Shown here: in pieces, positions 4,592 to 26,650 of the stretch
Position numbering within the stretch: position 1 is the first letter of the stretch
How the letters are laid out: every line of letters starts with the position of its first letter
NCBI GenBank assembly: GCA_017615355.1
Contig: JAGAAJ010000100.1
Coordinates: forward strand, 1-35,740
DNA from: Prevotella sp.
GTDB lineage: Bacteria; Bacteroidota; Bacteroidia; Bacteroidales; Bacteroidaceae
Length of the DNA stretch: 35,740 bases
Direction of reading: 5' to 3'
Notes under the pieces: model-generated
What the model was told of the DNA's origin: nothing
Databases searched by the model: none
Seen by the model: the letters and a program-made list of their open reading frames with translations, nothing else
Made by a program: the position numbers and the translations under genes

Positions 4592-4620
4592 TTGTGATTA
4601 CATTTTTTTTACTATCTTTG
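4592..4620 (+). promoter_or_regulatory. Promoter of the large secreted-protein gene
   Basis: TATCTTTG (4613-4620) is a consensus -7 box, with TTG (4592-4594) 18 bases upstream as the -33 element. The predicted start near 4627 gives a leader of about 75 nt rich in AAC/AAA before the ATG at 4701. Confidence 0.7.
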
Positions 4621-9130: not shown

Positions 9131-11977
9131 ATGAGAAGACACTCAATCATCAAACCCGCACGGAGTATGACTGCCGCCTGCGTGCTGATGATGGCAGGTG
9201 CTATGCTGACCACGTCGTGTAAGGACGAGGTGCTCAGCGGACAGCCGGAATGGTTGGGCAACTCCATCTATGAGCGACTGCAGGAAGAGGGCAACTACAC
9301 CACCGTGATGAAGCTCATCGACGACCTGGGGCAGCACGAGGTGCTGGCGCATACAGGTTCGAAGACGCTCTTCGCTGCTGACGATGACGCCTTTCAGGAG
9401 TGGTTCCGCAACAACAACTGGGGCGTGAAGAGCTATGCTGATCTCTCTTTGGCACAGAAGAAACTGCTGCTGAAGAACTCCATGATCAACAACGCCTACC
9501 TCATCGAGCTGATGTCGAATGACAAGGCCAAGAGCGACAATGCCACGCCTCTGGAAGGCAGGGCCATGCGTCGTGAGACGGCTGTCTCCATCTACGACTC
9601 CGTCTACATCATGCCACCGTCGAAGTTCCCGCAGGCAAAGTCTTGGGACGAGCTGAGAAAACGCAACAAGCCCATCCCCATCATGTGCGACATCACTGAG
9701 CCGCCCATGATTCACTTCCTGCCCGCCTTCATGCGCTATCACAAGATAACGGATGAGGACCTGGCTATCCTCACCAACCAGCAGGCAAAGTCGACTGCTG
9801 AGGCATGGGTGAACGGCAAGCGAGTCAGCGAGCGCGATATCACCTGCAAGAACGGCTACATACAGAAGGTGGACGGCGTGATTGAGTCTGCTCAGAATAT
9901 GGCACAGATCATGCACCAGCATCCTAACATGTCGATGTATACCAGCCTTGTGGACCGATTCTCAATGCCTGTGCCCGATTTGGACGACAAGGGCGGCTTC
10001 GGCTCGTTCAGCAGCGAGTACAACCGTCTCTACAATCGTGAGGACACCGTCTACGTGCTCGCCTATTATGCCAACCGCTATGCCAACAACAAGATCCTGT
10101 CCGAAGCACAGGACAAGAACGACTGCGGCGGTCAGCTCGTGTTCGACCCAGGCTGGAACCAGTACATTGACTCCAAGCTTGACGTCACCCTGCACAACGA
10201 TGCTGGCGTGATGATCGTGCCCACCAACGATGCTATGGACCGCTTCTGGAACAATGAGGGCCGTGCCCTGAGAGATGAGTTTGGCTCGTGGGACAATGTG
10301 AACATGAAGGTGCTCACTTCACTGGTGCGCAACCATCAGCTCAGCTCTATCACAGCCGCTGTGCCGTCGAAGTTCCATACGGTGCTGAACGATGCCTTCG
10401 AGACCCTCGGCATCACGAAGGAGGACATCGACTCCTGCTTCATCGGCTGCAACGGCGTGGTGTATATGACCAACAAGGTGTTCATGCCTGTGGAGTTTAT
10501 ATCCGTGCTCTCGCCCGCTTCGTTCCACAACCAGACGATGAGCATCATCTACTGGTCGCTGACTGGCGCTGAACAGTATTATAAGATTACCTACGACAGC
10601 TACGGACATATCAGCGACGTGAAGACCTATCAGTTCAACTTTAAGCCGTATCTGCTCTCCATGAGTTCCAGATACGCTATGCTCCTGCCCACCAACGACG
10701 CTATGCAGACATATATCGACCCCGTCTCCTACGGCGGTGAGTCGATGCGTGTCTCGGAGGAGGGCGACACCACCACGCTGATGAAGGTGAACGCAATGAC
10801 CTGGGAGTACGACACGTCGAAGAACCAGGATGAGTGGGTGCAGGCCAGGCCGCGCCCCGTAGTGGTGGAGGAAGACGGCTCGCTCACTTTGGATGGCTCG
10901 TCCAACCAGCAGCCTGCCGCAGCCACCAAGGTGCGCAATATGCTTGAGAACCTCATCAACCAGCTCATCATCGTCATTCCTGACTCGATGAAGCAGAAGA
11001 CCCTCGACGACTATCTGAACGAGGGCTATCCCTACTTCCTCACCAAGGGTGGCAGCATGATTCGAGTCAGTCGTGGCGAGAATGGCAATCTCAGCTTCGA
11101 GGGCGGATGGCAGATGGAAGGTAACGGCAAGCCCGTGGTGGTTTCGGAAGAGTACAAGGAAGACAACGGCGTCAGCTATCAGCTGGAAGAGACGTTGCCC
11201 CTGCCCACCACGAAGTCGCTCTCGATGGTGCTGAAGTCACACGATGAGTACAGTACCTTCATGCATCTGGCCAACAACGACCTCACGTCCCTCTTCTCAA
11301 AGACCATCAAGGCTGGTGGCGATGAGACCTTCTCTGCCGGCAGCTCGAAACAGAACAACGTCAACTTGACGCTTTTCGACAACTATAACTACACCGTCTA
11401 CGTTCCTACCAACAGCTCCATCGAGAAGTTACAGGCCGACGGTCTGCTGCCTTCCTTCGATGCCATTGATGCCACTTGGGATCCTACCAAGTCTGTCTCT
11501 TTCGACAGCCTGTTGGAGGCAGAGCATCTGATGATAGAGAACTTCAGGGACCTGACAGCTTCGCAGGCAACCAACTATCGCAAGAGGGCGAAGGAATTGG
11601 TGCAGAATCTGTTGAGGGATTTTGTGCGCTATCACGTGCAAGACCATAGTGTCGCCATCGGTCTGGCCTCTGAGCGCAATCACGGCCAGTTTGAGACCAT
11701 GAAGCGCAATCCTGTGAACAAACGCTTCTTTACCCTCGGCGTGAGCTTCGACAACCAGCAGATCACCGTCACCGATGAGCTGGGTCAACAGCATCATGTC
11801 CTCGCTAAGCCAGGCCTCTATAATAATATTGTACGCGAGTATTGGCTCAAGGGCGGCTTGCAGCGAATGGTGAGCGACGCCGTCGTCCACTTGATTGACA
11901 GTCCGCTGAAGTATCAGGAGATGCGCCCCTGGCGCCAGGTGGTACTCGAGACTCTTGAAGCTGAATATGTGAAATAA
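9131..11977 (+). CDS. FAS1 (fasciclin) domain lipoprotein, four-repeat form
   Basis: I start at the ATG at 9131; the open frame reaches back to 9041, but only from 9131 does a clear lipoprotein signal appear, ending in LTTSC with Cys30. The following KDE is like the Bacteroidetes signal that sends lipoproteins to the outer surface. The 948-residue product contains at least four FAS1-type motifs: TLFAADDDAF, MIVPTNDAMDRF, AMLLPTNDAMQTYI and VYVPTNSSIEKL, with matching (R/N)(Y/H)H segments. FAS1 domains are small adhesive folds known from eukaryotic and bacterial cell-surface proteins. It is the first gene of a seven-gene set and ends 4 bases before a SusC gene, in the place where a SusCD locus often has an accessory surface lipoprotein. 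Ligand unknown. Confidence 0.85.
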   Translation: MRRHSIIKPARSMTAACVLMMAGAMLTTSCKDEVLSGQPEWLGNSIYERLQEEGNYTTVMKLIDDLGQHEVLAHTGSKTLFAADDDAFQEWFRNNNWGVKSYADLSLAQKKLLLKNSMINNAYLIELMSNDKAKSDNATPLEGRAMRRETAVSIYDSVYIMPPSKFPQAKSWDELRKRNKPIPIMCDITEPPMIHFLPAFMRYHKITDEDLAILTNQQAKSTAEAWVNGKRVSERDITCKNGYIQKVDGVIESAQNMAQIMHQHPNMSMYTSLVDRFSMPVPDLDDKGGFGSFSSEYNRLYNREDTVYVLAYYANRYANNKILSEAQDKNDCGGQLVFDPGWNQYIDSKLDVTLHNDAGVMIVPTNDAMDRFWNNEGRALRDEFGSWDNVNMKVLTSLVRNHQLSSITAAVPSKFHTVLNDAFETLGITKEDIDSCFIGCNGVVYMTNKVFMPVEFISVLSPASFHNQTMSIIYWSLTGAEQYYKITYDSYGHISDVKTYQFNFKPYLLSMSSRYAMLLPTNDAMQTYIDPVSYGGESMRVSEEGDTTTLMKVNAMTWEYDTSKNQDEWVQARPRPVVVEEDGSLTLDGSSNQQPAAATKVRNMLENLINQLIIVIPDSMKQKTLDDYLNEGYPYFLTKGGSMIRVSRGENGNLSFEGGWQMEGNGKPVVVSEEYKEDNGVSYQLEETLPLPTTKSLSMVLKSHDEYSTFMHLANNDLTSLFSKTIKAGGDETFSAGSSKQNNVNLTLFDNYNYTVYVPTNSSIEKLQADGLLPSFDAIDATWDPTKSVSFDSLLEAEHLMIENFRDLTASQATNYRKRAKELVQNLLRDFVRYHVQDHSVAIGLASERNHGQFETMKRNPVNKRFFTLGVSFDNQQITVTDELGQQHHVLAKPGLYNNIVREYWLKGGLQRMVSDAVVHLIDSPLKYQEMRPWRQVVLETLEAEYVK

Positions 11978-11981
11978 CCTA

Positions 11982-14900
11982 ATGACAAAGCAGAAGACTA
12001 TGAGTATACAGATAAATGAACGCGCGAGAAGGATTGCCCGCCGTCTGCTGCCGCTCCTGCTGCTGGCCTTGTTGCCTTTAGGCGCGTCGGCACAGAACAT
12101 TACCTCAGTCCACGGCACGCTGACGGACGAATACGGACCGCTGCTTGGCGCCACCGTCTGCGAGATAGACGCCAACGGACGTATCATCAACTCCGCCGTT
12201 ACCGATCTCAACGGTAACTTTACCATGAAGGTGAAGGACACGAAAGACAAGATACGCTTCAGCTATATTGGCTTGACCACTGTGACGATGGCCATCAACA
12301 AGACCACGTACAACCTGCGCATGAAGTCTGAGAACACCATCCAGCCCGTTGTCGTGAAGGCAAAGCGGCGTGCACAGGGCAATGGCCTTCCCATTCCTGA
12401 GCGTGAGATATCCTATGCTTCGCAGACCATCTCAATGAAGGAGTTCGAGGGTCTGGGTATGACCACCATCGACGAGGCATTGCAGGGCCGTATTGCCGGC
12501 TTGGATATCATCGGCAATAGCGGTAACCTCGGCGCTGGATCCACCATGCGTTTGCGTGGTGCCAGCTCGCTGTCGACGCTGACGGATGCCAATCCCCTTA
12601 TCGTCGTTGACGGCAATATCCGTGACGTCAATCTCGATGGCTTTGATATGGCTGGCGCCAGCGACGAGAAGTTCGCTGAGCTGCTGAACATCAACCCTGA
12701 GGACATCGCCTCCATCACCGTGCTGAAGGATGCTGCCGCTGCTGCAGTCTACGGATCACAGGGTGGTAATGGTGTCATCGAGCTCATCACAAAGCGCGGT
12801 GCCCGTGGTACGCCCAGAGTGAGTTATCAGCTGCGTCTCACCGGCACCTATCAGCCGAAGGGTTACAAGCTGCTGAATGGCGACGACTATACCATGATGC
12901 TGAAGGAGGCTTATTTCAATCCGCAGCAGGATGATTCAAAGTCTGCCGATGTGCGTGAGCTCAACTATGAGGACGACTTCTCAGAATATGAGATGTATAA
13001 CAACAATACCGACTGGCGTGATGCCGTCACACAGTGGGGTTTGCGTCAGAATCACTATGTCACCATCAGCGGTGGCGGTGAGAAAGCCCTCTTCCGTATC
13101 AGTGGCGGTTACGACCATGAGACGGGTTCGGTCATCAAGCAGAAGCTGAACCGTTTCACCACTCGTGTTGCCCTCGACTACAACGTATCAGAGCGCATCC
13201 GCGTGAGTACCAACTTCTCGCTGACCTACACGAAGAACGACATGAACTATAGCGATCTGCTCAACATCGCACTGAAGAAGATGCCGAACATGAGCATCTT
13301 TGAGCAGGACGCGAACGGCAACGATACCGACCGCTATTACACCATGCTGCAGAGCGGCTCCTCCGTCTTCGACAACGACCAGAAGGGCTATGTCAACCCG
13401 GTGGCATCGGCAAACTTGGCTAAGAGCCAGCGCCGCAGCTATGACATGAATCCCGAGCTTATCATCGACTACAATCTGCTGGGCCTCGATGAAGACCACT
13501 GGCAGCTGAAGTGGCGTGGCTCCGTCCTGATGAACATCGCCAACCAGTATAACGAGTCGTTCTTCCCACAGGAGCTGGCCAGCGGTGTCATCACTGGCAG
13601 CGGCATCAATAAGGCTGCCAACAGCTCCGCAAAGAGCGTGTCGTTCAACACGAAGCAGACGCTGACACTGACACCCGCCTTCCCCAATAAGGACCATAAG
13701 ATGATGATGATGGCACGCTTCGAGCTGACCAGCGGAAGCAGCAACTCGCAGTCCACAAGCGGCTACGGCCTGCCTTCTACAGGCGGTGTCATCACCAGTC
13801 CTGCTGCCGGCGGCATCATCAGCAACATGGATTCGCCCTATAACCAGTGGCGCTCTATGTACTACACCTTCTCTGCACACTACGCCTATAAAGAGCGATA
13901 CATCGCCGACTTCACCGTGCGAGCCGATGGTACGACCAAGTTCGGTCCGGGCCACCGTTGGGGCTACTTCCCCTCAGTGTCTCTGAAGTGGATCATCAGT
14001 GATGAGCCTTGGATGCAGAAGCTGAAGCCTACCCTCTCGATGTTCGCCATCCGACCGGGTTGGGGACGAGTGGGCAACCAGCCGCGTGACAACTATCTAT
14101 ACACCTCCACATACGGAGCTGGCGGAACATACATCGACCGCTCGTCGATGGTACCCCTGCGTCTGCGTCTCTCCGACTTGAAGTGGCAGCTCGTCACCAG
14201 CTATAACTTCGGTGTCGACCTCGGCTTCTTCGACGGTCGCCTCAACCTTACCCTCGAGGGCTACCAAAGCACGACTACGGATATGCTTTTGGAGAATTTC
14301 CGCATCCCCTCCAACTCCGGCTATGCCACCAAGCGTTACCACAACAACGGCAAGATGCGTAACACCGGCTGGGAGTTCCATATCAACACCAACCGCCTGC
14401 TGAAGATCAACAAGTTCACGATGGACATGAACGTGAACTTCGGCAACAACCGCAACGAGATTCTGGAAATGGATGAGTACATCCTTGAAAACAAGAACTC
14501 CATCTACGGCTATCAGAATGCTGAGCGATTGGTGCGTGTGCAACTGCACAATCCTTTCGGCGCTATCTACGGCTTCAAGTACAAAGGCGTCTACCAGTAC
14601 AATTACAATACGATCAGGAACGCTGTTGAGGGTATGACGCGAGAGGAAATCTACGACTATTGGGCTAATTTCGTAGCCGAAGGCAAGACGGCTCCTGTAG
14701 CCGTGTCGGCTGACGGACAGATTATCCTCGACGGCAACGACGTACCAAAGCGTATGATGTACGACTACCGCATTGACGGCACCGGCCACAACTCTTCCTA
14801 TCCTGGCTTCAACGGTGGCGATGCCATCTATGAGGATGTCAACCACGATGGCCAGATCAATGCCCTTGATATTACCTACCTTGGTTCGTCGCTGCCCAAG

Positions 14901-15389
14901 CTCACCGGCGGTTTTGGCTTCACGTTCAATATGGGTGAGTGGCGCCTGAGCACACAGTTCACTTATCGCGTGGGCAATAAGATCATCAATATGGCTCGTC
15001 TGCGCTCTGAGGCTATGATCGGCAACGACAACCAGAGCCAGGCCGTGAACTACCGCTGGCGCAAGGAAGGTGACGTCACCACTATTCCTCGTGCTTTGTA
15101 CGGTGAGTCTACCAACTACAACACGCTCATCAGCGACCGTTTCGTAGAGGACGGCTCCTACCTGCGTATGAGTTATGCACAGCTTTCCTACTCGTTGAGG
15201 AAGCAGCAGCTGAAGTGGTGTGGACTCAACCGTGTCTCTCTGTATGCTAGTATCAACAATCCTTTCGTCATCACGAAGTACAGCGGCGTCGACCCCGACA
15301 TCGCATTCGGAGGCGAATGGCCTGCTACCGACGATGCGCAGACTCCGCGTTCGCGTTCCTACACACTCGGTATTACTGTTGAGTTCTGA
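11982..15389 (+). CDS. SusC/RagA-type TonB-dependent outer membrane transporter
   Basis: This 1135-residue protein has a signal peptide ending ASAQ, an N-terminal carboxypeptidase-regulatory-like domain (VHGTLTDEYGPLLGATV, about residues 43-110), a plug domain with the SusC hallmarks RLRGASSL and NPLIVVDG (about 190-215) and VYGSQGGNGVIELITKRG, and then a long beta-barrel ending in an aromatic residue (VEF). Such proteins import large ligands across the outer membrane with energy from TonB, working with the SusD lipoprotein encoded next. An ATG at 12000 is an alternative start. The spacing to the FAS1 gene before it is 4 bases. The family call is secure; the substrate is not shown by sequence. 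Confidence 0.95.
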   Translation: MTKQKTMSIQINERARRIARRLLPLLLLALLPLGASAQNITSVHGTLTDEYGPLLGATVCEIDANGRIINSAVTDLNGNFTMKVKDTKDKIRFSYIGLTTVTMAINKTTYNLRMKSENTIQPVVVKAKRRAQGNGLPIPEREISYASQTISMKEFEGLGMTTIDEALQGRIAGLDIIGNSGNLGAGSTMRLRGASSLSTLTDANPLIVVDGNIRDVNLDGFDMAGASDEKFAELLNINPEDIASITVLKDAAAAAVYGSQGGNGVIELITKRGARGTPRVSYQLRLTGTYQPKGYKLLNGDDYTMMLKEAYFNPQQDDSKSADVRELNYEDDFSEYEMYNNNTDWRDAVTQWGLRQNHYVTISGGGEKALFRISGGYDHETGSVIKQKLNRFTTRVALDYNVSERIRVSTNFSLTYTKNDMNYSDLLNIALKKMPNMSIFEQDANGNDTDRYYTMLQSGSSVFDNDQKGYVNPVASANLAKSQRRSYDMNPELIIDYNLLGLDEDHWQLKWRGSVLMNIANQYNESFFPQELASGVITGSGINKAANSSAKSVSFNTKQTLTLTPAFPNKDHKMMMMARFELTSGSSNSQSTSGYGLPSTGGVITSPAAGGIISNMDSPYNQWRSMYYTFSAHYAYKERYIADFTVRADGTTKFGPGHRWGYFPSVSLKWIISDEPWMQKLKPTLSMFAIRPGWGRVGNQPRDNYLYTSTYGAGGTYIDRSSMVPLRLRLSDLKWQLVTSYNFGVDLGFFDGRLNLTLEGYQSTTTDMLLENFRIPSNSGYATKRYHNNGKMRNTGWEFHINTNRLLKINKFTMDMNVNFGNNRNEILEMDEYILENKNSIYGYQNAERLVRVQLHNPFGAIYGFKYKGVYQYNYNTIRNAVEGMTREEIYDYWANFVAEGKTAPVAVSADGQIILDGNDVPKRMMYDYRIDGTGHNSSYPGFNGGDAIYEDVNHDGQINALDITYLGSSLPKLTGGFGFTFNMGEWRLSTQFTYRVGNKIINMARLRSEAMIGNDNQSQAVNYRWRKEGDVTTIPRALYGESTNYNTLISDRFVEDGSYLRMSYAQLSYSLRKQQLKWCGLNRVSLYASINNPFVITKYSGVDPDIAFGGEWPATDDAQTPRSRSYTLGITVEF

Positions 15390-15430
15390 TGCTTCGCTAA
15401 ATATTCAGTCTAACGAAAAAAGAAGAAACT

Positions 15431-17236
15431 ATGACTACCACGATATACAAAAAGGTAAAAGGGCAGACAAGTTTGTTATTTGTTCTTTGTTCTTTCTTAT
15501 TTAGCGTAGCGCTGACCTCCTGCTCCGACTTCCTTGAAATTAAGCAGATGAATGAAATCATCCTTGAGGATTTCTGGAATGAGAAGTCTGACGTTGAGAA
15601 TGTCGTTACCGGATGCTATGCCGATTTGCTTGAGGACGGTATCCGCGAGCGTATGATGGTGTGGGGTGAAGGCCGAAGCGACAATGTGGCGGGTGGCCGC
15701 GACATTACCAATCAGCTCAACCTCTACAATGTGCTGCGTGAGAACATCACTGCCATGAACTCCTACACCAAGTGGGAAAGTTTCTATGCCATCATCAACC
15801 GCTGCAATACTGTGATGAAGTATGCACCGAAGCTCAGCACTGTTGACCCGAGCTTCACGCAGGCCGACCTGAAGGCCACTATTGCCGAGATGACCGCCCT
15901 GCGCTCGCTGTGCTATTTCTATCTGATCCGTACTTTCCGCGACGTACCTTTCAGCCGCGTGGCCTATACCGATGACGATCAGAAGATGGACCTGCCTGCC
16001 ACACCGTTCTACGATGTGCTCGATAGTCTTATCTATGACCTGGAGAGTGTCAAGGGCGATGCCGTTACCCGCTATCCCCTCACCGAGCCGCGCGATCAGA
16101 CGGGCCGTATCACACGTGACGCCATCTACGCCATGCTCTGCGAGATGTACTTGTGGAAGCAGGATTACGACAACTGTATTCGCTACGCCGAATTGGTTAT
16201 CGACTCGAAGAAGGAATACTTTACCGAGGTCGTGAACACCGCCGGCAGCAAGATCAATGCCAAAGATGCTGAGCTGATGCTGTTGCGTACCAACGGCTAT
16301 CCGCTGGTCTGCCTGCACATGAACGGCAACAATTTCGGCCAGGCTTACAAAGACCTCTTTGTCACAGGAAACAGCTTTGAAACCATCTTCGAGTTGGTCT
16401 ATTCTGACAATCCTTCCAGCAGTGGACAGAAGGCCAACGACGCTATCAGCAGCCTATACGGAAACAATACAAATAAAAAGGGCTCTTTCGTGGCAACTAC
16501 CCTCATTACCGAGGATGCAACAAAGGAATCTGCCCGCACCGTCTACGAGGATGTGAACAAGGCCTACGATGCCCGTATCTATACCAACTGCAGCTCCAGT
16601 AGCGGCTATATTACCAAGTATGCCACAAGGGCACAGGATGTGAGTGCCTCGTCTACTAAGGTGTCTGAGAATGAGAATAATACTAACAGGGAACGCTCCT
16701 ATTATGCCAATGGAGAAAACGGCAGCAAGTGGATTATCTATCGCTTGTCTGACATCATGCTCTTAGAGGCCGAGGCCCTGTGCCAGCAGATGGTGGAAGG
16801 CAGTGACAGTGTCGCCGCCAGCATCAATCGTGAGAAGCTCGACAAGGCCTTCTCGCTGGTCAATGCCGTCAACAAACGCTCCATCTGCAAGAATGTACTG
16901 CAGGCTTCTGACACCCTGAAACGCAGCAGCTATAACAGCAGGTCGCAGATGGAGAGCCTGGTGGAACGCGAGCGCCGTCGCGAACTGATGTTCGAGGGCA
17001 AACGCTATTACGACCTGGTTCGCTACGCTATGCGGGCAGGCAATACCACCGAGTTTGCCTCAGTCATGTCAAAGCGTGAAGACGTTAACCAAGGCTATGT
17101 CAGCAATTTCTTCAAGAAGATGGATGCTATCTTCTGGCCCTACAACTATGAAGAGATGCGTGTCAACCGCAACCTGAAGCCCAACCCGGCCTTCGGAACG
17201 GGCGAGAATGAAAGCTATGAGAAGACATCCAAGTAG
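15431..17236 (+). CDS. SusD/RagB-type surface lipoprotein
   Basis: The 601-residue product is the SusD partner of the preceding SusC, a helical TPR-like lid that binds ligand at the cell surface. The signal ends VALTSC with Cys31, followed by SDF. Family features include the N-terminal FWNEKSDVENVVTGCYADL, the helix ALRSLCYFYLIRTFRDVPF, and the C-terminal VERERRRELMFEGKRYYDLVRYA, all typical of RagB/SusD. The hydrophobic core of the signal peptide is encoded by a simple TTTGTT/TTCTTTG repeat tract (about 15471-15500). The first residues, MTTTIYKKVKG, resemble those of the FAS1 lipoprotein at 19562 (MKKILYEKVKG). The gap after susC is 41 bases. Confidence 0.94.
   Translation: MTTTIYKKVKGQTSLLFVLCSFLFSVALTSCSDFLEIKQMNEIILEDFWNEKSDVENVVTGCYADLLEDGIRERMMVWGEGRSDNVAGGRDITNQLNLYNVLRENITAMNSYTKWESFYAIINRCNTVMKYAPKLSTVDPSFTQADLKATIAEMTALRSLCYFYLIRTFRDVPFSRVAYTDDDQKMDLPATPFYDVLDSLIYDLESVKGDAVTRYPLTEPRDQTGRITRDAIYAMLCEMYLWKQDYDNCIRYAELVIDSKKEYFTEVVNTAGSKINAKDAELMLLRTNGYPLVCLHMNGNNFGQAYKDLFVTGNSFETIFELVYSDNPSSSGQKANDAISSLYGNNTNKKGSFVATTLITEDATKESARTVYEDVNKAYDARIYTNCSSSSGYITKYATRAQDVSASSTKVSENENNTNRERSYYANGENGSKWIIYRLSDIMLLEAEALCQQMVEGSDSVAASINREKLDKAFSLVNAVNKRSICKNVLQASDTLKRSSYNSRSQMESLVERERRRELMFEGKRYYDLVRYAMRAGNTTEFASVMSKREDVNQGYVSNFFKKMDAIFWPYNYEEMRVNRNLKPNPAFGTGENESYEKTSK
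15471..15500. repeat. Simple-sequence tract encoding a signal-peptide core
   Basis: Units of TTTGTT and TTCTTTG run through the part of the SusD gene that encodes LLFVLCSFLF. It is like other low-complexity tracts found between genes in this window, but here it is inside a coding region. Confidence 0.6.
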
Positions 17237-17259
17237 GAACTATCTTAAACATACAGACT

Positions 17260-19479
17260 ATGAATAGCAAAGATATAAAGCACCGGATCAAGAACTCGCT
17301 TCTGAGACTCGCCGCTGTCCTGGTTCTTCCAGCCAGTGGAGTGGGAGGGGGACTGCTCCTTTCCTCGTGTTCCGACGAACCCGACAGCGAGTATTATTAT
17401 ACGTTCACGGGTGAGATGATCAGCGACTACCTCGCCAACCGCCCCTGCTATAGCCAGTTCAAGACCATCGTGGAGCGGGCCCACCTCATGGATCTCCTCT
17501 CCACCTACGGCAAGTACACGTGTTTTGTGCCCTCCAACGATGCTGTTGAGGAATTTCTGAAGAAGCGTGGCCTGCAAAGTGTGGAGGAGCTCAGCGATGC
17601 CGACTGTGACACCATTGCACGCACGCACCTCATCGACAACCTCTACACCACCTATTCGATGAATGCGCAGACCATCCCAACCACCAACCTGCTGGGACGT
17701 TATCTTGCCACGTCGCAGGGAGTCGATGCCGACAGCAATGCCGTCGTCTACATTGAGAAGAAGGCGCACGTCATCTTCGAGCAGACACTTTCTGACGGTA
17801 CCTACATCCATCAGAACGACTCTGTGGAAAATGGCATCATCCAGCCCATTGACAAGGTGATTGAGAAATCGAACAGCTTCATTGCTGACATCCTGCGCGA
17901 CAACCCCGACATCAGCATCTTCTATGAGGCTTTGGTGGCTACCGGCGTACGCGAGCAGATCCTGCTGATTGAGGATCCTGACTACAGCAACAAGCAGTCA
18001 CGTTATCGCTATCGTTCCGACATTTGGGAAGAAGTGGCATGGGTGCCCGACCACAAGAAATACGGCTATACCGCCTTCGTCGAGCCTGACTCGCTATACA
18101 GGGCTAAGTTCGAAGAATATGGCATCGACACCAGCCAGGGTGATCTGTACGCACTCTATCAACTGGCTTGCCGCTTCTACGACCCCGTCTACAAGGACGA
18201 CGTCAAGGCTGAGGGACATGACTTCAAACACCTTGACAGTCCCGTCAACCCCTTGCACCGCTTCGTGCAGTACCATATCCTCAACCGCTATGCGGGGCCC
18301 GACCAGCTGACTCCCTTCGAGCCCAATCAGACGAAAGAGGCCTTTGGCTTCGACACCAGGCTCTGCAATCCCGTCGACTGGTATCAGACACTGCTGCCCT
18401 ACACCATGCTGAAGATTGAACAGCTCAGTAGGAAGAAGCGCCAGGATCCCCAGAATATCAATTCCCATCTGAATGAGATTGACATCTACGGACCGGATGC
18501 TTCCTACAAAGGCCAGCACTTTGTCAACCGCCGCTATGAGTCGCCCGACTATGAATATCGTGGCTCACATATCATCAGCGTTTCCAAAGTGAACCCCGAC
18601 GTAGAGGATGATGCCGTCAACGGCCACTACTTCTATGTCGACGACCTTGTGGTCTTTAGCAAGGATGTACGCGACGTGGTTCAGAACATGCGTATACGCA
18701 TGGACTTCTCCAGCATCTTCCCCGAGGTGATGAACCAGGGCATTCGTCTGGAGGGTAATTATGACAAGGATGACGATGCAAACTTCCCCGACGAGAAAGA
18801 GGTTCCCGACAACGGACGCAACTACTACTTCCCCGAAGGCTATCTTGATGGCGTCACCTTCAGCAACTGCTATGTGGTGCTGCGCCGTCCCCACTGCAAC
18901 TTCTGGTCGTGGCAGGGCGATGAGTGGAACCTGAAGGGCAAGTATGACTTCACCTTCCGCATCCCGCCGGTGCCCTATAGTGGTGAGTGGCAGCTGCGAC
19001 TCGGCTTCTGTGCTATTCCTCGTCGAGGCATCATGCAGACCTACTTTGACGGCGAGCCGCAGGGACTGCCCCTCGACATGACCAAGTTCCTCAACAGTGA
19101 CCTCTACATCAGTGACCGCTTTGTCGATGATGAGAAGCTCAACAACTATAGTGGAATGAGTGATGAAGAGCGTGCGGCAGAGCAGAAACTGCTCCGCAAC
19201 CTGGGTGCCTATCGTGGTGGCCGCAGTATCTATCACTTCCCGCCAAACGTCAGTGATGATAACTTCAGGAATTACTTTGCCGGCAATCCCAGAACATACC
19301 GCAAGATTCTCTATCAGGGTTACATCGATGCCACCAAGGACCACTACATCCGTTTCCGCGTGGGTAGCGGTAATACTGATGCCGGTCAGGACAACGAGTT
19401 CATGCTCGACTACTTTGAAATGGTGCCGAAGACCGTCTACGGCGTTGACGGCGACGGCGAAATAGAGGATGACCTGTAA
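17260..19479 (+). CDS. FAS1 domain lipoprotein with C-terminal beta-rich domain
   Basis: The 739-residue product has a lipoprotein signal ending LLLSSC (Cys37), followed by SDE, which fits surface export. A first FAS1 domain is marked by YTCFVPSNDAVEEFL (about residues 85-100) and TIARTHLID. A second, more diverged one is suggested by NPLHRFVQYHILNRY near residue 330. The last 250 residues are beta-rich with many aromatic residues (GVTFSNCYVVLRRP, FWSWQGDEWNLKGKY) and may be a separate ligand-binding fold; I do not recognise it with confidence. The gene lies 23 bases after the first susD and before another FAS1 gene, so all probably share one mRNA. An adhesive or ligand-binding role beside SusCD is inferred. 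Confidence 0.8.
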   Translation: MNSKDIKHRIKNSLLRLAAVLVLPASGVGGGLLLSSCSDEPDSEYYYTFTGEMISDYLANRPCYSQFKTIVERAHLMDLLSTYGKYTCFVPSNDAVEEFLKKRGLQSVEELSDADCDTIARTHLIDNLYTTYSMNAQTIPTTNLLGRYLATSQGVDADSNAVVYIEKKAHVIFEQTLSDGTYIHQNDSVENGIIQPIDKVIEKSNSFIADILRDNPDISIFYEALVATGVREQILLIEDPDYSNKQSRYRYRSDIWEEVAWVPDHKKYGYTAFVEPDSLYRAKFEEYGIDTSQGDLYALYQLACRFYDPVYKDDVKAEGHDFKHLDSPVNPLHRFVQYHILNRYAGPDQLTPFEPNQTKEAFGFDTRLCNPVDWYQTLLPYTMLKIEQLSRKKRQDPQNINSHLNEIDIYGPDASYKGQHFVNRRYESPDYEYRGSHIISVSKVNPDVEDDAVNGHYFYVDDLVVFSKDVRDVVQNMRIRMDFSSIFPEVMNQGIRLEGNYDKDDDANFPDEKEVPDNGRNYYFPEGYLDGVTFSNCYVVLRRPHCNFWSWQGDEWNLKGKYDFTFRIPPVPYSGEWQLRLGFCAIPRRGIMQTYFDGEPQGLPLDMTKFLNSDLYISDRFVDDEKLNNYSGMSDEERAAEQKLLRNLGAYRGGRSIYHFPPNVSDDNFRNYFAGNPRTYRKILYQGYIDATKDHYIRFRVGSGNTDAGQDNEFMLDYFEMVPKTVYGVDGDGEIEDDL

Positions 19480-19483
19480 AAAG

Positions 19484-19517
19484 ACCCACCCCCAGCCCCT
19501 CCCTGGAGGGAGGGGAG
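19484..19517. repeat. GC-rich palindromic repeat between FAS1 genes
   Basis: GACCCACCCCCAG (from about 19483) leads into CCCCTCCC TGGA GGGAGGGG (19496-19515), a perfect 8-bp hairpin. An inverted, slightly changed member of the family lies at 19619-19653 inside the next gene. The hairpin lacks a T run, so it may weaken rather than end transcription. Confidence 0.7.
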
Positions 19518-19561
19518 AGGTTACCATTATTTTCACTAAGACATCATAAACGATAACTATT

Positions 19562-21433
19562 ATGAAAAAAATATTATATGAAAAGGTAAAGGGGCTTCTT
19601 CGCTTTACAATGTATCTGCTCCTCCCCCTCGCAGGGGGAGGATGGGTGGGGGTCTCCTGCACCGACACGTGGGACGACCACTACGAAGGTCAGGCCACTG
19701 CCGAGTATGGCATGAGCGACAATACACTCTGGCAGGCCATCAAGGAAAATCCGCAGCTGAGCAACTTCGCCAGTGTCGTTGAGGCGTGCAACTTCGACCG
19801 TACGCTCAACTCTGCGCAGGTGCTTACCGTCTTCGCGCCTACCAACGACTGTCTGTCGAAAGAGCAGGCACAGGAGCTCATTACCCGCTATCAAACTGAG
19901 AAGAACAACGGTACGCTGGAGGAAGACAACACCGTGATGAAGGAATTCATTCAGAATCACGTAGCCCTGTTCAATTTCTCCGTTTCCGACCATACGAATG
20001 ACTCCATCCGTATGATGAACGGCAAGAAGCTGCCCCTGCTTAGCAACAGGTTGAACAATGCGACATTGCTCTCGAAGAATGCCCTTTACAGCAATGGCAT
20101 CCTCTTCACTGTTGACAATACGGTGGAGTTCCTGCCCAATGTCTTCGAGTATATCCGCAAGGATGCCGACTTCGACAGCCTCCGTTCGTTCCTGTATTGC
20201 GGTGACCCGCTCATCAGCGGTCGCAGCTATCCGCAGTTCTACTACAAGGAGTTTATGCCCAGCCTCAGTGTGGCAGGCAGCATCAAGGACGGCAAGACGC
20301 AGTATCTCGACTCTGTCTTTATCCAGCGCAACCGTCTCTTCGAGACATTGGGTAATCTGCACGTGGAAGACAGCGCCTATATCTTCCTTGCTCCCACCAA
20401 CGAGGTATGGAGCCAGCTCGTGGAAGAATACGAGCCCTACTTCGATTATCCTGAAGACGTGGACAAACGCGACTCCCTCATCTATCGCAATACCCGTCTT
20501 GCCATTATGGAAGGCACTACCTTCAGCCGTACGTTCAACAGCGACGAGGCACTGCAGGATTCAGCCATGTCGACAAACTGCGTAAGGGAATACACCTTGC
20601 GCCGCCAGGTCTGGGGAGGCCCCTTTGAATACTATCAGTATTTTATGCCGCTGAGCACGAACGGTGCGTTTGACGGAACTGAGGTTATCAGGTGCAGCAA
20701 TGGCGAGGTGCGCAAGGCCTCTAAGTGGAACATCGACAAGCGAATGACTTTCAACCAGTACCTTGTTGAGGAGGCTGAATACTCGTCGAATGTCAAAGAC
20801 GTGGTTCGTGTGTATGATCAGCAGCTGAAAGACTCCATCAATCTGGCCAAGATTACCGAGTGCTACGTCTCTTCCGACAACATCTTCTATGAGCGTGTAT
20901 GGGATGCTGGCTTCATCGAGGTGACGCCAACTGTTTCTGATAACATTTACATCAACTTCTACCTGAAGAACCATCTGTCCAATATCGGATACGATATCTA
21001 TCTTGTCACCGTTCCCGCATTGGCCAACGATAGCAATGCCACTGCCGTGCAGCGCCTGCCGACAAAGCTGCGCTGTGTCATCAGCAGCCCGGGCGTGAAG
21101 GACTACAGATCATCTGACCTCATCACCACACCCAATGCGGTAGACTATCTGCTGGTGGCCGAGGACTACAAGTTCAAAAATTGTACTTACGGAGTCACAA
21201 ACACCGACTTGCAGACCGTGATGAAGGTGGAGACACGTGTCAAGAGCAACGAGAACGATGTGACTTACTCACGTACGCTGCGTATCGACTGCATCTTGCT
21301 CGTGCCGCATGGTACGCTGCAGCTTGTCGATGCCCTTGACATCGGTTCGGCCCAGGGACAGCCTGGTGTGTTGCTCTATCCTCACGGACAGTACGACGAC
21401 CGCGCCTATAAATTCTGGTATATGCTCCGCTAA
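19562..21433 (+). CDS. FAS1 domain lipoprotein, two-repeat form
   Basis: The 623-residue product has a lipoprotein signal with Cys33 in VGVSC followed by TDTWDDH. The first FAS1 domain carries the near-canonical LTVFAPTNDCL (about residues 85-95) and IQNHVALFNF. A second is seen at YIFLAPTNEVWSQL (about 275-290). The C-terminal part (NIYINFYLKNHLSNIGYDIYLV and onward) is beta-rich and not recognised. The segment LLLPLAGGGWVGVS of its signal is encoded by a GC-rich palindromic repeat (19619-19653), so the repeat helps form the export signal. The gene lies between a FAS1 gene and the second SusC gene, with 82 and 33 base gaps. Confidence 0.83.
   Translation: MKKILYEKVKGLLRFTMYLLLPLAGGGWVGVSCTDTWDDHYEGQATAEYGMSDNTLWQAIKENPQLSNFASVVEACNFDRTLNSAQVLTVFAPTNDCLSKEQAQELITRYQTEKNNGTLEEDNTVMKEFIQNHVALFNFSVSDHTNDSIRMMNGKKLPLLSNRLNNATLLSKNALYSNGILFTVDNTVEFLPNVFEYIRKDADFDSLRSFLYCGDPLISGRSYPQFYYKEFMPSLSVAGSIKDGKTQYLDSVFIQRNRLFETLGNLHVEDSAYIFLAPTNEVWSQLVEEYEPYFDYPEDVDKRDSLIYRNTRLAIMEGTTFSRTFNSDEALQDSAMSTNCVREYTLRRQVWGGPFEYYQYFMPLSTNGAFDGTEVIRCSNGEVRKASKWNIDKRMTFNQYLVEEAEYSSNVKDVVRVYDQQLKDSINLAKITECYVSSDNIFYERVWDAGFIEVTPTVSDNIYINFYLKNHLSNIGYDIYLVTVPALANDSNATAVQRLPTKLRCVISSPGVKDYRSSDLITTPNAVDYLLVAEDYKFKNCTYGVTNTDLQTVMKVETRVKSNENDVTYSRTLRIDCILLVPHGTLQLVDALDIGSAQGQPGVLLYPHGQYDDRAYKFWYMLR
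19619..19653. repeat. GC-rich palindromic repeat inside a lipoprotein signal sequence
   Basis: CCTCCCCCT (19621-19629), CGC, AGGGGGAGG (19633-19641) is a perfect 9-bp hairpin followed by ATGGGTGGGGGTC. Read on the other strand it resembles the intergenic copy at 19484-19517. It encodes most of the hydrophobic and glycine part of the signal peptide of the FAS1 lipoprotein. Confidence 0.75.
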
Positions 21434-21466
21434 TATGTTCCACGACTATTCACAAAGAAAGAAACT

Positions 21467-24400
21467 ATGAGACGATATATCTTATTTGGCCTTACCCTGT
21501 CGCTGCTGACAGCATTGCCCGTCAGCCTCTATGCTCAGGACGACGAGCAGGAAGAGGTGGAGGTGAGTGCTCCGGTCAGGAAAGCCGTTGTGAAGAAACA
21601 GTATCCTACGCGTACCGTCCGTGGCCATGTGCTCGATGCTGCCACACGCCAGCCCGTAGCCGGTGCCATCGTGCGTGCTGCCGAGATTGACGGATTCAGT
21701 ACCCTGACCGACGATGACGGCGCCTACGAATTGAAGGTGCCCCTCTTCGCCAGCGCCCTCTTCATCACCACTACTGACTATACCCCGCAGCGCCAGGGCC
21801 TTACTGCCGACGAGGAGCAGCGCACGTCATTGCTGTATGTCACCACCTTCCGTAGCGACTATGCAGCCAAGACCAATGTGCTCGGTATGCAGGAAGCTAC
21901 TGACTTCCGCTATACCAATGCCGTCAACATCAAGGATGAGATGCAGGACCAGATGGGTGCCTATGTGCACACCATCAGTCGTGGCGGTACGCCCGGTGTC
22001 GGTTCGGTGATGTTCATACAGGGTCTCAACTCGCTGAACGTCAATGCCCAGCCCCTTGTGGTTGTCGACGATGTCATCATCGACCAGCAGTACACCCGTA
22101 CCATGCTGCACGACGGCTTCTACAACGATGTGCTGTCGAACATCAATCCCGCCGATATCGAGAAGGTTACCGTGCTGCGCAACGGCACAGCCCTCTATGG
22201 TGCTAAGGGAGCCAACGGCGTCATCCTGATCCAGACACGCCGTAACAAGTCGATGGCTACGCGTATCACCGCCAATCTCTCGGCCGGTGTCACCATGGAG
22301 CCCAAGTATTATTCGGTGATGGGTAACGACGAGTATCGCGGCTATGCCTCTGAGTTGCTGAAGACCACGCAGACGCTGACACGTACGTTCAAGTTCCTCA
22401 ACGAGGATCCCAGCTACTATTATTACGACCTCTACCATCAGAACACCGACTGGAAGGAGTATGTCTACCACACGGCCTTCACTCAGAACTACGGCATCAA
22501 CGTGGAGGGTGGCGACGATGTGGCCAACTATAACCTCTCTGTAGGCTACGGCAACCAGCAGAGCACGCTGAAGAAGAATGACATGGACCGTCTGAATGTT
22601 CGTTTCAACACCGACATCGGTCTGAGTCCCAAGCTCGACGTGCGTTTCGATGCCTCGTTCTCGAACGTCACCCGCAACCTGCGAAACGATGGTGCTCCTG
22701 TAGGCTATGATGAAGGCACCCCGACAGCGCCCTCTTTCCTGGCCTATACCAAGAGCCCGTTTATGAGCCCCTACAGCTACGGACATGACGAGACGGGTTC
22801 GGGTCGCTTCTCCGATACGAAGTTCGACATCACCGAGGAGAATTACCTCGAGGAGGCCATGGTCAGATACAATGGCTACAACTGGCAGCTGGGCAACCCC
22901 GCAGCTATCCTGGAATGGTCGGATGCCGAGAACAAGAACCATTTCGAGAACTCCATGCTCAACCTCACCATCACCCCGAAGTATCTGATCAACCGCGACC
23001 TGTTTGTCAGCGAGCACTTCAGCTACAATCTGGTGAACACCAGCGAGATGTTCTATATCCCCATCAATGGCACGCCCAACTATTACGTTTCCAGCCTGGC
23101 TCGCACCGTGGATAATGAGGTGCGTTCGCTGGCCTCGAAGCAGAACTCTGTGATGAGCGATACACGCATCGACTGGACGAAGCGTTTCAGCGCCCATTTC
23201 CTGCACCTCTTCGGTGGTGTCCGCATCAACTGGGAGAGCTACTCCGTCAATCGCCAGTGGGGCTACAATACCGGCAGCGACAAGACGCCGCGAATGCACG
23301 CCGGCCTCTTGGGCAAGGGTGCGAAGAGCATCAACGAGAACTGGAACAGCATGGCTTGGTATGCACAGGCCGAATACAACTACAAGAGCCGCTACTATCT
23401 TCAGGCCAACCTCACAATGGAGGGCTCTTCACGTTTCGGCTCCGAGAGTGGCGACATCAAGCTGCTGAAGGCTCCCTGGGCCATCTTCCCCGCCGTGCAG
23501 GCCTCGTGGGTGGTGAGCAACGAGCCTTGGATGGCCAAGGTGGGCGGCATCGACTACCTGCGACTTACCGCTGGCTATGACATCAGCGGCAACGACGACA
23601 TCGACTATTATGCCGCCCGCAGTTATTTCAGCTCCTCGCTCTATCAGAATCGTATCTCAGGCCTGGCCTTTGAAGGCATTGGCAACAACAGTATCAAGTG
23701 GGAGACGACACGCCGCCTGAACGCCGGCTTCGAGTCACGTTTCCTCAACAACCGCCTCGGCCTTTCGTTCAACTATTTCCGCTCTGCCACCAACAACCTC
23801 CTCACCCGTCAGACGCTGGGCTATCTCAGCGGACTGCGTGAGAACTGGTCCAACGACGGCAAGCTCAAGAACGAGGGCTTCGACGTCGACGTCAACGTGA
23901 AAGTGCTGGCCATGAAGGACTGGCAGTGGCAGGTTGGCGCCAGCGTGGGACACTATAAGAATGAGCTGACCAAGCTGCCGCTGACCGCCCAGCAGCTGGC
24001 CGACGGCACCCGCTATTTCGACTCCGAGGTCTATGGAGCCACCGTCCGCTCGCAGGAGGGACAGGCTTCCAACATCTTCTACGGCTACAAGGCGCTGGGT
24101 GTCTTCTCCACTACGGAGGAGGCTATGGCAGCCGGCCTGACGGGTGAGAAGGGCCTCTACTTCATGGCCGACAATGGCATTGACAAGTATTATTTCGGTG
24201 CCGGCGACGTGCATTTTGCTGATCTCAACGGCGACGGCATGATTACCGAGGCCGACCAGACCGTCATCGGTGATCCCAATCCCGATATCTACGGCAATAT
24301 CTACAGCTCGCTCAACTGGAAGCGCCTGCGTCTCGACGTTCGCTTCAACTATTCCTTGGGCAACGATGTCTACAACTACATGCGTTCGCAGCTGGAAGGC

Positions 24401-24769
24401 GGCAATCGCTTTATGAACCAGACCACGGCTATGGAGCGCCGCTGGCAGGTGGAGGGACAGCAAACCGACATGCCACGCATCACCTTCCAGGATCCTATGG
24501 GCAACTCCCGTTTCAGCAACCGTTGGATTGAGGACGGCTCCTATCTGCGTCTGAAGAGCGTCACCCTGAGCTATGACCTGCCGATCAAGTCAGAGTACCT
24601 GCAGGGTATGCAATTCTGGGTGCAGGGCAACAACCTGTTCACCCTCACACGCTATCTTGGCAGCGATCCCGAATCTGCTTTGACGGGCAATGTCATCGGA
24701 CAGGGCGTCGATGTGGGCTATTTAGGTCACAGCCGCAGCTTCGTAGCCGGTGTGAAGATCAACCTGTAA
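21467..24769 (+). CDS. SusC/RagA-type TonB-dependent outer membrane transporter, second copy
   Basis: This 1100-residue protein has a signal peptide ending SLYAQ, an acidic linker (DDEQEEVEV), a carboxypeptidase-regulatory-like domain (RTVRGHVLDAATRQPVAGAIV, about residues 50-110), a plug domain with the altered SusC motifs FIQGLNSLNVNAQPLVVVDDV and LYGAKGANGVILIQTRRN, and a barrel ending in VKINL. The residue before GLNSL is Gln, where the family usually has Arg (RG..S). It is clearly diverged from the first SusC in this operon, so this is not a recent duplication. It pairs with the SusD-like gene that follows. Substrate unknown. Confidence 0.94.
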   Translation: MRRYILFGLTLSLLTALPVSLYAQDDEQEEVEVSAPVRKAVVKKQYPTRTVRGHVLDAATRQPVAGAIVRAAEIDGFSTLTDDDGAYELKVPLFASALFITTTDYTPQRQGLTADEEQRTSLLYVTTFRSDYAAKTNVLGMQEATDFRYTNAVNIKDEMQDQMGAYVHTISRGGTPGVGSVMFIQGLNSLNVNAQPLVVVDDVIIDQQYTRTMLHDGFYNDVLSNINPADIEKVTVLRNGTALYGAKGANGVILIQTRRNKSMATRITANLSAGVTMEPKYYSVMGNDEYRGYASELLKTTQTLTRTFKFLNEDPSYYYYDLYHQNTDWKEYVYHTAFTQNYGINVEGGDDVANYNLSVGYGNQQSTLKKNDMDRLNVRFNTDIGLSPKLDVRFDASFSNVTRNLRNDGAPVGYDEGTPTAPSFLAYTKSPFMSPYSYGHDETGSGRFSDTKFDITEENYLEEAMVRYNGYNWQLGNPAAILEWSDAENKNHFENSMLNLTITPKYLINRDLFVSEHFSYNLVNTSEMFYIPINGTPNYYVSSLARTVDNEVRSLASKQNSVMSDTRIDWTKRFSAHFLHLFGGVRINWESYSVNRQWGYNTGSDKTPRMHAGLLGKGAKSINENWNSMAWYAQAEYNYKSRYYLQANLTMEGSSRFGSESGDIKLLKAPWAIFPAVQASWVVSNEPWMAKVGGIDYLRLTAGYDISGNDDIDYYAARSYFSSSLYQNRISGLAFEGIGNNSIKWETTRRLNAGFESRFLNNRLGLSFNYFRSATNNLLTRQTLGYLSGLRENWSNDGKLKNEGFDVDVNVKVLAMKDWQWQVGASVGHYKNELTKLPLTAQQLADGTRYFDSEVYGATVRSQEGQASNIFYGYKALGVFSTTEEAMAAGLTGEKGLYFMADNGIDKYYFGAGDVHFADLNGDGMITEADQTVIGDPNPDIYGNIYSSLNWKRLRLDVRFNYSLGNDVYNYMRSQLEGGNRFMNQTTAMERRWQVEGQQTDMPRITFQDPMGNSRFSNRWIEDGSYLRLKSVTLSYDLPIKSEYLQGMQFWVQGNNLFTLTRYLGSDPESALTGNVIGQGVDVGYLGHSRSFVAGVKINL

Positions 24770-24770
24770 T

Positions 24771-24805
24771 CGAAATTGAAAATTGATAATTGAAAATTGA
24801 AAATT
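24771..24805. repeat. ATTGAAA simple repeat upstream of the second susD
   Basis: Four to five copies of AATTGAAA-like units fill the gap between the second susC and susD genes and run directly up to the ATG at 24806. It also creates a TTG that extends the frame to 24797. The AT-rich run may keep the start codon free of structure. Confidence 0.65.
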
Positions 24806-26650
24806 ATGATTACCAAGATAAATAAAAAGGTGGTGGCAGGAGCATTCTCTCTCCTCTTTCCTCTCTCCTCTTTCCTCATGATGAGCTGCGACGACTTCTT
24901 CAATCAGGAGTCCAACGACGTGCTCTACGACAATCAGGAGCATCTTGACAATGCCGTTGACTCGGCATGGTCTGTGGTGGGCATCCTTGGCAAGCTGCAG
25001 CTCGTGGCCGACCGCACCGTCATCCTGGGTGAGGTGCGTGGCGATCTCGTCGACCTCAGCACGGCGGCCAGCAGCGACCTGCGCGACGTGGCCAACTTCA
25101 ATGTCGGCGACGACAACAAGTATAACAACCCGACCGACTACTATGCCGTCATCAACAACTGCAACTATTTCCTTGCCCATGTCGATACGTCGCTGCGCAG
25201 CCGCAATGAGCCTATCTTCATGGCTGAATGGGCTGCCGTGAAGGGTATTCGCGCATGGACCTACCTGCAGCTGGCCCTCAACTACGGCAAGGTGCCCCTC
25301 ATCACCGAGCCGCTGCTCAGACGTGAGGATGCCGAGGCCGCCGAGAAGGGACACATGGCAAGCATAGAGGACATCTGCACCTATTTCATCGACGACCTCT
25401 CCACCGTTCCCGCACGCTACAATAATGACTTCCCGCTGGACGACCGTTACGTCTCCGTGACGAATGTGAACAGTACCGAGCTGCTCTTCTTCCCCGTCAC
25501 GCTGCTGAAGGCCGAGCTCTACCTCTGGCGTGCCACCGTGACGAAGAGTGTCAACGACTACAAGCAGGCCGCCCTGAACTATTTCCAGTTCATCTCTGAG
25601 CGCAATGGTTCAGCGTCCTATCCCACCAAGAACGACAATCTGAGATGGCGTGCAGGGACCACAGAGTTCAGCTCGCCGATAGGCACTTTGGACTATGCCA
25701 AGGCCGAAGACCTCATCACCGTCATTCCTGGTAACTCGTCGCCCACCGTGGGCTTCTATAGTGAGCTGAATAATCTCTTCTGCTCGAACGATGACAACAA
25801 CTACCTGGTCAGTCTCCTGGCATCGCAGCGCATCTTCGATATCTCCGAGGCCCAGGACTACTGCCTGCCCGCCTCCAATGCCCAGTCGTATTCCTTTGTG
25901 CCCAAGGGACTGCGCGACTATCAGTCGGGCGACCTGCGCTTGAGCCGTGTCTATGACGAGGACTACGAGTACGACCCGTTTACCGAGGAGCGTATCCGCA
26001 CGAAGTACATCTCCAAGCACCGCTCCACCAACGTCACCGTCTATCGCCGCGTCTTGGTCTATCTGCACCTGGCCGAGGCCCTCAACGGTGCCGGCTATCC
26101 GCGCATGGCCTACCTCATCCTGTCCACAGGCCTGAGCAACAGGCAGATCAAGGAGCAGGCAATGCCCTACTACATGACCGACGACCGTGCCGACTCACTC
26201 TATCTGGCACAGTTCAATTTCGACGACCGCCTCTATCGCGTGTGCACCTTCGACGACTACAACGGCGTCTCTCCTGAGGGCAATCAGCTGGGCATCCACA
26301 GCCGCGGATCGGGATGGACACCGCTCAACGACCGCTATGTGCTCATCAACGACACCATCGAGCCCGACCTGCAGAAACGCCAGCAGCTCGTGGCCGAGCA
26401 GCAGCTCTTCGTCGACAGCCTCCTGCTCAACGAGAATGCCCTGGAGATGGCTTTCGAGGGCAACCGCTACTACGACCTCATGCGTTTCGCCATGCGTCAG
26501 AGCAATCCCGCTGCCTTCATGGCCGACCACATCTTTGCCCGTCGGGGCGAGGACAAGCGTGCCGAGGTGCAGGGCGAGGTGAAGACCGACTTCACCGACC
26601 GCAGCACCTGGTTCCTCAAGTGGAATGGAAAGATTGGTTTGATGGAGTAA
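24806..26650 (+). CDS. SusD/RagB-type surface lipoprotein, second copy
   Basis: I start at the ATG at 24806; the TTG at 24797 lies in repeat DNA and adds nothing conserved. The 614-residue product has a lipoprotein signal ending FLMMSC (Cys28), then DDF. SusD features are the N-terminal DNAVDSAWSVVG, the helix AVKGIRAWTYLQLALNYGKVPLITEPL, and the C-terminal ALEMAFEGNRYYDLMRFAMRQSNP. The hydrophobic core of the signal is encoded by a perfect 14-bp tandem duplication. It is the partner of the second SusC and the last clear member of the FAS1/SusCD operon. Confidence 0.93.
   Translation: MITKINKKVVAGAFSLLFPLSSFLMMSCDDFFNQESNDVLYDNQEHLDNAVDSAWSVVGILGKLQLVADRTVILGEVRGDLVDLSTAASSDLRDVANFNVGDDNKYNNPTDYYAVINNCNYFLAHVDTSLRSRNEPIFMAEWAAVKGIRAWTYLQLALNYGKVPLITEPLLRREDAEAAEKGHMASIEDICTYFIDDLSTVPARYNNDFPLDDRYVSVTNVNSTELLFFPVTLLKAELYLWRATVTKSVNDYKQAALNYFQFISERNGSASYPTKNDNLRWRAGTTEFSSPIGTLDYAKAEDLITVIPGNSSPTVGFYSELNNLFCSNDDNNYLVSLLASQRIFDISEAQDYCLPASNAQSYSFVPKGLRDYQSGDLRLSRVYDEDYEYDPFTEERIRTKYISKHRSTNVTVYRRVLVYLHLAEALNGAGYPRMAYLILSTGLSNRQIKEQAMPYYMTDDRADSLYLAQFNFDDRLYRVCTFDDYNGVSPEGNQLGIHSRGSGWTPLNDRYVLINDTIEPDLQKRQQLVAEQQLFVDSLLLNENALEMAFEGNRYYDLMRFAMRQSNPAAFMADHIFARRGEDKRAEVQGEVKTDFTDRSTWFLKWNGKIGLME
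24848..24875. repeat. 14-bp tandem duplication in a signal-peptide sequence
   Basis: TCTCTCCTCTTTCC occurs twice in direct succession (24848-24861, 24862-24875), encoding part of FSLLFPLSSFL in the SusD lipoprotein. As 14 is not a multiple of 3, gain or loss of one unit would shift the frame. Confidence 0.85.

Follow-up and report, generated by a model that had tools for sequence, protein, structure and literature searches.

The heptad and its FAS1 lipoproteins

The window analyzed here is a stretch of 35,740 nucleotides of Prevotella sp. DNA (assembly GCA_017615355.1, contig JAGAAJ010000100.1). Between positions 9131 and 26650, it carries seven genes on one strand in the order FAS1A-SusC1-SusD1-FAS1B-FAS1C-SusC2-SusD2, a group that we refer to as the heptad. 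The original prediction, made from the letters of the DNA, had named this order, the single direction and the gaps of 4-82 bases, and both Pfam assignments and coordinates confirm it. The seven genes are listed below (counts out of 102 refer to the heptads collected in the next section).

9131..11977, + strand: FAS1A, lipoprotein with about four FAS1-like stretches (Pfam; profile search)
11982..15389, + strand: SusC1, TonB-dependent transporter (Pfam; own clade, 102/102)
15431..17236, + strand: SusD1, SusD-like lipoprotein (Pfam)
17260..19479, + strand: FAS1B, lipoprotein with two FAS1 domains and a jelly roll like that of carbohydrate-binding modules (CBM) (Pfam, predicted model)
19562..21433, + strand: FAS1C, lipoprotein with two FAS1 domains and a CBM-like jelly roll (Pfam, predicted model)
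21467..24769, + strand: SusC2, TonB-dependent transporter of a clade differing from that of SusC1, 27% identity (Pfam, tree)
24797..26650, + strand: SusD2, SusD-like lipoprotein (Pfam)

The open frame of FAS1A begins with a TTG at 9041, and its signal peptide begins at the ATG at 9131. Pfam finds Fasciclin three times in the heptad (E-values of 2.5e-14, 3.2e-12 and 1.5e-11; scores of 54, 47.2 and 45 bits against a curated cut-off of 22), the TonB plug twice and SusD families twice. The three lipoproteins thus qualify as FAS1 domain proteins, and each SusC-type TonB transporter with its adjacent SusD-type lipoprotein forms a Sus-type pair.

Structures were predicted for FAS1B and FAS1C. In the FAS1B model, FAS1 domains occupying residues ~50-205 and ~207-475 are followed by a C-terminal CBM-like jelly roll (~476-727); the FAS1C model has the same layout (~50-192, ~194-395 and ~397-590, respectively). 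The jelly roll may be of the CBM84/CBM35 type, CBM35 having been named in the structural comparison of the predicted FAS1C. No CBM-like domain was found by a profile search of FAS1A, and the FAS1C of genome G036 matched none of the solved structures by sequence at E 0.01. Lipobox-like N-termini were detected with a simple pattern in 75-88 of 102. In the predicted models, where two FAS1 domains are joined to a CBM-like jelly roll at the C-terminus, FAS1B and FAS1C thus look like surface glycan-binding lipoproteins.

Several further observations concern FAS1 proteins. Following the lipobox cysteine, FAS1C has a motif of the type C-(S/T)-D-x-W-D-D-H-Y; among 53 sequences, residues W37 and H40 never vary, a degree of conservation beyond what an export signal alone would seem to require. 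In five large genomes (G780, G785, G795, G811 and G825) of the genus to which genome G032 belongs, the FAS1C profile matches just a 238-aa frame (E ~1e-7), perhaps a separate small FAS1 protein. Genes of ~700 aa resembling FAS1B, with no adjoining heptad genes seen, occur at L088, L091, L092, L093, L095, L101, L102, L106, L113, L116 and L120, and genome G060 has 19 FAS1 matches in total, those listed being in frames of ~700-735 aa.

Recurrence and joint evolution of the seven genes

The same gene order was searched for in other Bacteroidales genomes, as the original prediction had proposed. We counted 102 exact heptads, including some from other families and orders; 100 are distinct by their SusC sequences, the repeats being the same locus met twice. 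With 102 exact copies, the order is beyond chance. It recurs across the bacterial class and is found in several orders, and the expectation that the heptad is one unit with FAS1 genes in fixed places holds in nearly all homologous loci.

A scan with a FAS1B profile led to Prevotella, Xylanibacter, Hallella, Paraprevotella and other Bacteroidales, many of them from rumen or gut. Among the 80 loci that were the best of at least 410 relatives, 56 are exact and 11 have FAS1B without heptad genes as far as the contig reaches. The remaining 13 comprise nine loci cut by contig ends (in one, L103, an antisense call additionally hides FAS1B), L046 (FAS1B masked by an antisense call), L119 (rearranged), L062 and L064. 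The last two are titled Paraprevotella, and FAS1B is doubled in them.

Because a FAS1 query might favour FAS1 loci, a search was also made with a single SusD2 in 295 genomes of the order. This query was strict, the window's own SusD2 not being recovered; it returned 17 places in 11 genomes, and all ten loci retrieved from other Bacteroidales families (seven genomes) have the exact order. The FAS1C profile matched 44 of 395 genomes of the phylum, mostly over the FAS1 domain alone; in seven genomes of other orders, the match extends along most of the length, and the eight loci found there are all in the exact order. In the genus of G032, where nine genomes were chosen from the 30 that the FAS1C profile matches at E 1e-5, each of the 11 heptads read is exact; the SusD2 profile matches 19 of 158 genomes of this genus (up to eight candidates scored per genome).

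The sample of the window's own family comprises 61 genomes from 30 genera; FAS1C is present in 31 of these genomes and in 17 of the genera, with 61 copies overall, and by FAS1C count, the heptad occurs up to six times in a single genome. The window's genome has three heptads, the two others being located on contigs C139 and C124. Twenty family loci form a biased sample, having been selected chiefly by FAS1 spacing; six of them fall outside the exact set:

G030C33, G028C19: set aside from the exact heptads, SusC1 in two frames
G008C1, G042C82: set aside from the exact heptads, antisense open reading frame called where SusD1 and FAS1A belong
G022C3: set aside from the exact heptads, rearranged
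G030C19: set aside, no heptad

Twenty further loci, outside the 102, yielded five heptads, one locus cut at the end of the stretch (L165), two loci without FAS1B and 12 without a heptad. L152 (genome G020) and L157 (G046) are six-gene versions in which FAS1B is missing and the other genes are in order, hinting that FAS1B is a dispensable or swappable member. At G741:C38:43990-76999 (L210 and L211), two full heptads stand divergently, separated by a 1.9 kb gap with one gene.

In a tree of 102 SusC1, 102 SusC2 and seven other SusC sequences, SusC1 forms one clade (support 0.85), and so does SusC2 (support 1.0). The distance matrices of the seven heptad genes correlate at 0.87-0.97; between SusC1 and SusC2, the correlation is 0.969 (the largest value in 2000 permutations was 0.19), with kinship of the host species contributing to it. 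The nearest neighbour is identical by SusC1 and by SusC2 in 77 of the 102 cases. Since each transporter forms one clade and the distances correlate at 0.97, we conclude that the two SusCD pairs evolve as one unit. Within the heptads of the window's genome, SusC1 and SusC2 are 22-27% identical, which is as far apart as either is from unrelated SusC, and they are therefore not the product of a recent duplication. The three copies in this genome have diverged (SusC1 46-53% identical), suggesting that the whole unit was copied or transferred together. In Sus-like loci, reshuffling of binding proteins and enzymes is general; a fixed seven-gene core with two unlike pairs, present across several orders, suggests a mutual dependence of the two pairs.

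Neighbouring enzymes, probable ligand and proposed mechanism

Pfam was used to scan 18 window proteins at E 0.001 (SufE and 17 of the 18 open reading frames kept, all but one of 94 aa at the right edge). No glycoside hydrolase (GH), lyase, sulfatase, hybrid two-component system (HTCS) or sigma/anti-sigma pair was found among them. Nothing matched the gene at 34893 or the greater part of UPS, a large secreted protein encoded upstream of the heptad, so that an unrecognised enzyme may still be present. By strict definitions of a polysaccharide utilization locus (PUL), these 18 proteins include neither an in-locus carbohydrate-active enzyme nor a dedicated regulator (HTCS, SusR or extracytoplasmic function sigma/anti-sigma). 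The sole matches with a possible protein substrate are a U32 'peptidase' (2821-4194, other strand) and a transglutaminase-core gene (31811-33649). The claim that no degradative enzyme is present thus stands for the window, as far as Pfam sees, but fails for the module generally, several homologous loci carrying carbohydrate enzymes.

The clearest case is the genus of G032, where a rhamnogalacturonan lyase of polysaccharide lyase (PL) family 11 lies within 20 kb of a heptad in six of nine genomes versus 0.35 expected (P 1.6e-7; distances read by hand from match tables); a rhamnogalacturonan I (RG-I) lyase hence stands beside SusCD genes in these six. At two loci of this genus, PL11 is just 6 and 9 bases from SusD2, and four have a common flank with GH28, GH88 and a DUF4450 protein (labels by similarity to Pfam-annotated seeds). 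In G358, from another order, a frame for a PL4 rhamnogalacturonate lyase with a type IX secretion system (T9SS) signal overlaps the end of SusD2. Tallies of flanking, upstream and downstream genes given here show the 25 commonest Pfam families; across 36 flank genes from other Bacteroidales families, they contain GH88 three times, pectinesterase once and a pectate lyase family twice (weak, best E 3.3e-4). GH28, GH88, PL11 and pectinesterase occur in the flanks of G036 and G030, and the PL11 protein of G036 matches solved PL11 lyases. The original prediction had suggested that FAS1 might point away from a free glycan; the CBM-like domains of the predicted models and the position of homologous heptads in pectin/rhamnogalacturonan loci do not support this.

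We regard it as probable that the heptad is one outer-membrane glycan-capture and import module with a dual SusCD, whose ligand is most likely pectic. This reading builds on the gene order and its conservation, on the joint evolution of the pairs, on how the domains are arranged in the predicted models and on the pectin enzymes beside many homologs. FAS1A, FAS1B, FAS1C and the two SusD lids, presumably exposed at the surface, would collect oligosaccharides of plant polysaccharides, most likely of the RG-I kind, and hand them to the two unlike TonB-dependent barrels, SusC1 and SusC2, with which they may form a complex. The C-terminal jelly roll of FAS1B and FAS1C would hold the sugar, and the paired FAS1 domains would act as spacers or docking surfaces on the transporters. 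In many relatives, adjacent genes would provide the enzymes; in the window's genome, they would come from other loci.

Some results weigh against a pectic module. Across the window's family (61 genomes), PL11 lies near heptads about as often as chance would predict (4 cases against 3.05 expected). The window has no RG-I lyase, the PL11 matches of its genome being on contigs C80, C84 and C95. PL11 is present in 20 of the 31 genomes with FAS1C versus 7 of the 30 others (P 0.0019), which is no better than GH10 (P 0.0020); PL11 was accordingly dropped as a genome-wide marker of the heptad. We conclude that the heptad is tied to plant-polysaccharide users generally and, clearly in the branch of the genus of G032, to RG-I. 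For the window's heptad, a pectic ligand is no more than the best single guess; with RG-I lyases on other contigs of its genome, the heptad possibly takes material already cut elsewhere.

The same machine might serve another glycan, the Prevotella branch with the window taking side chains of the arabinan, arabinogalactan or hemicellulose type and not the RG-I backbone. GH43 occurs in 8 of 39 upstream genes of relatives (gene L026:9686-11899 was left out of the Pfam scan), GH43 with CBM6 lies beside the heptad of Paraprevotella xylaniphila (L065), and GH3, GH2 and GH76 adjoin other heptads; the three diverged copies in the window's genome suggest several ligands, and the lack of PL11 enrichment in the family agrees with this. 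However, GH43 enzymes cleave off pectic side chains too, PL11 lies 285 bases from the heptad of G053, and in G033, a member of the window's genus, PL11 genes flank the heptad on both sides. We therefore hold such a change of glycan to be unlikely. An adhesive role, in which the SusCD pairs would be secondary and the FAS1 lipoproteins would fix the cell to host tissue, to other cells or to the surface of a plant, seems less likely than a capture and import module and is, in our estimate, distinctly improbable: two SusCD pairs, each of its own clade, keep fixed places in every counted heptad, both modelled FAS1 proteins terminate in a CBM-like domain, and carbohydrate enzymes adjoin many homologs.

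How the two pairs cooperate bears on the capture and import module itself. They could be independent transport systems sharing an operon, each with its own binding protein and ligand, which would be compatible with a pectic ligand. The low identity of SusC1 and SusC2 speaks for such independence, yet their nearest neighbours mostly agree, and no half-heptad was found in uncut loci, where the FAS1B, FAS1C and SusD2 queries would miss a FAS1A-SusC1-SusD1 half; we consider independence possible but doubtful. We put forward with similar reserve, as a tentative proposal, that the seven proteins may assemble into one stoichiometric machine of the outer membrane, in which FAS1 pairs would clamp the two SusCD transporters together and one glycan would be sorted to two barrels (e.g., backbone and side chain); such an architecture would predate the separation of the orders of Bacteroidia and have been retained since. 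Whether the two SusCD transporters work as one complex becomes directly testable.

Flanking features and known systems

The following features lie next to the heptad:

4613..4620, + strand: TATCTTTG, -7-type element 5' of UPS (motif search)
4701..8861, + strand: UPS, large secreted protein of 1386 aa with repeated jelly-roll-like stretches; weak DUF5013 match, below the cut-off
8945..8971, + strand: intrinsic-terminator-like hairpin between UPS and FAS1A (z -6.1; 0/200 shuffles fold equally well)
26678..27403, + strand: DUF2461 gene, 27 bases 3' of SusD2 (Pfam)

UPS had been suggested to be part of the system. Homologs are present among 7 of the 39 compared upstream genes (L046, L047, L048, L049, L056, L068 and L072), but in other relatives this position is taken by enzymes or by different secreted proteins, so UPS belongs to the module in a portion of the window's branch only. 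Judged by sequence, it appears to have an accessory place in the module among some of the heptad's relatives. The element 5' of UPS is presumably a -7 element of the Bacteroidota type. On the + strand, TAnnTTTG is found at 4613 and next at 28696, with none between, where chance would give about four (a scaled shuffle mean that ignores the higher G+C of this stretch); the full two-part promoter pattern has no match at 4613. The hairpin is very stable and has a T-rich tail. This arrangement is consistent with transcription that starts before UPS and partly reads through into the heptad, or with a different type of promoter, under regulation, before FAS1A. The hairpin is also a possible attenuator, dividing high UPS expression from lower heptad expression.

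The DUF2461 gene may be on the heptad transcript; DUF2461 is absent from the 25 commonest families (54 matched) across 36 downstream genes of relatives. The other window genes appear ordinary; they encode YbeY, a cytidylyltransferase-like protein, RuvB, SufE and U32 on the opposite strand. Further on, two related DUF3857/DUF3858 genes overlap (29835-31814 and 31811-33649, + strand), the transglutaminase core being matched by Pfam in the second only, and short tandem repeats follow 3' of them (21-base units at 33982-34123 and 11-base units at 34466-34520).

No description of a dual SusCD and three-FAS1 unit was found in the open-licence literature, which is not proof of absence; in PMC10199937, the FAS1 term is confined to a reference. 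The trypsin-binding proteins of Paraprevotella clara, a species with a heptad (L082), were considered and rejected: in PMC9477747, the effectors are T9SS proteins and FAS1 or fasciclin is unmentioned. A PUL with GH5, GH9 and GH26 is described for Gramella portivictoriae and relatives, with a FAS1 domain protein among the figure abbreviations (PMC4891872). As in the heptad, a FAS1 protein thus lies within a PUL with SusD; the available text names neither a dual pair nor three FAS1 genes, and the comparison is one of descriptions.

FAS1 adhesion proteins such as periostin, TGFBIp, fasciclin I and MPB70 have the FAS1 fold and tandem domains in common with the heptad FAS1 proteins, which differ from them in being bacterial lipoproteins encoded in a TonB-transporter operon and in having an added CBM-like domain. 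FAS1, best known from animal adhesion proteins, thereby gains a probable role in bacterial glycan capture. Sus-type systems, in which SusCD is accompanied by SusE/F or surface glycan-binding proteins, have in common with the heptad the SusC barrel, the SusD lid and extra lipoproteins, for which the predicted FAS1B and FAS1C models show a C-terminal CBM-like domain. Their binding proteins have Ig-like spacers where the heptad has FAS1 domains, and the heptad is unlike them in its two diverged pairs in fixed order and its seven-gene core without an enzyme. The closest described topology is that of the RG-I PUL of Bacteroides thetaiotaomicron (BT4145-4183), in which, according to the available portions of PMC8002723 and PMC3243724, the SusC/SusD pairs BT4164/4165 and BT4168/4169 have the surface glycan-binding protein BT4167 and one further gene number between them and are followed by the surface RG-I lyase BT4170. 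The order C-D-x-x-C-D is that of the heptad, the likeness being one of topology.
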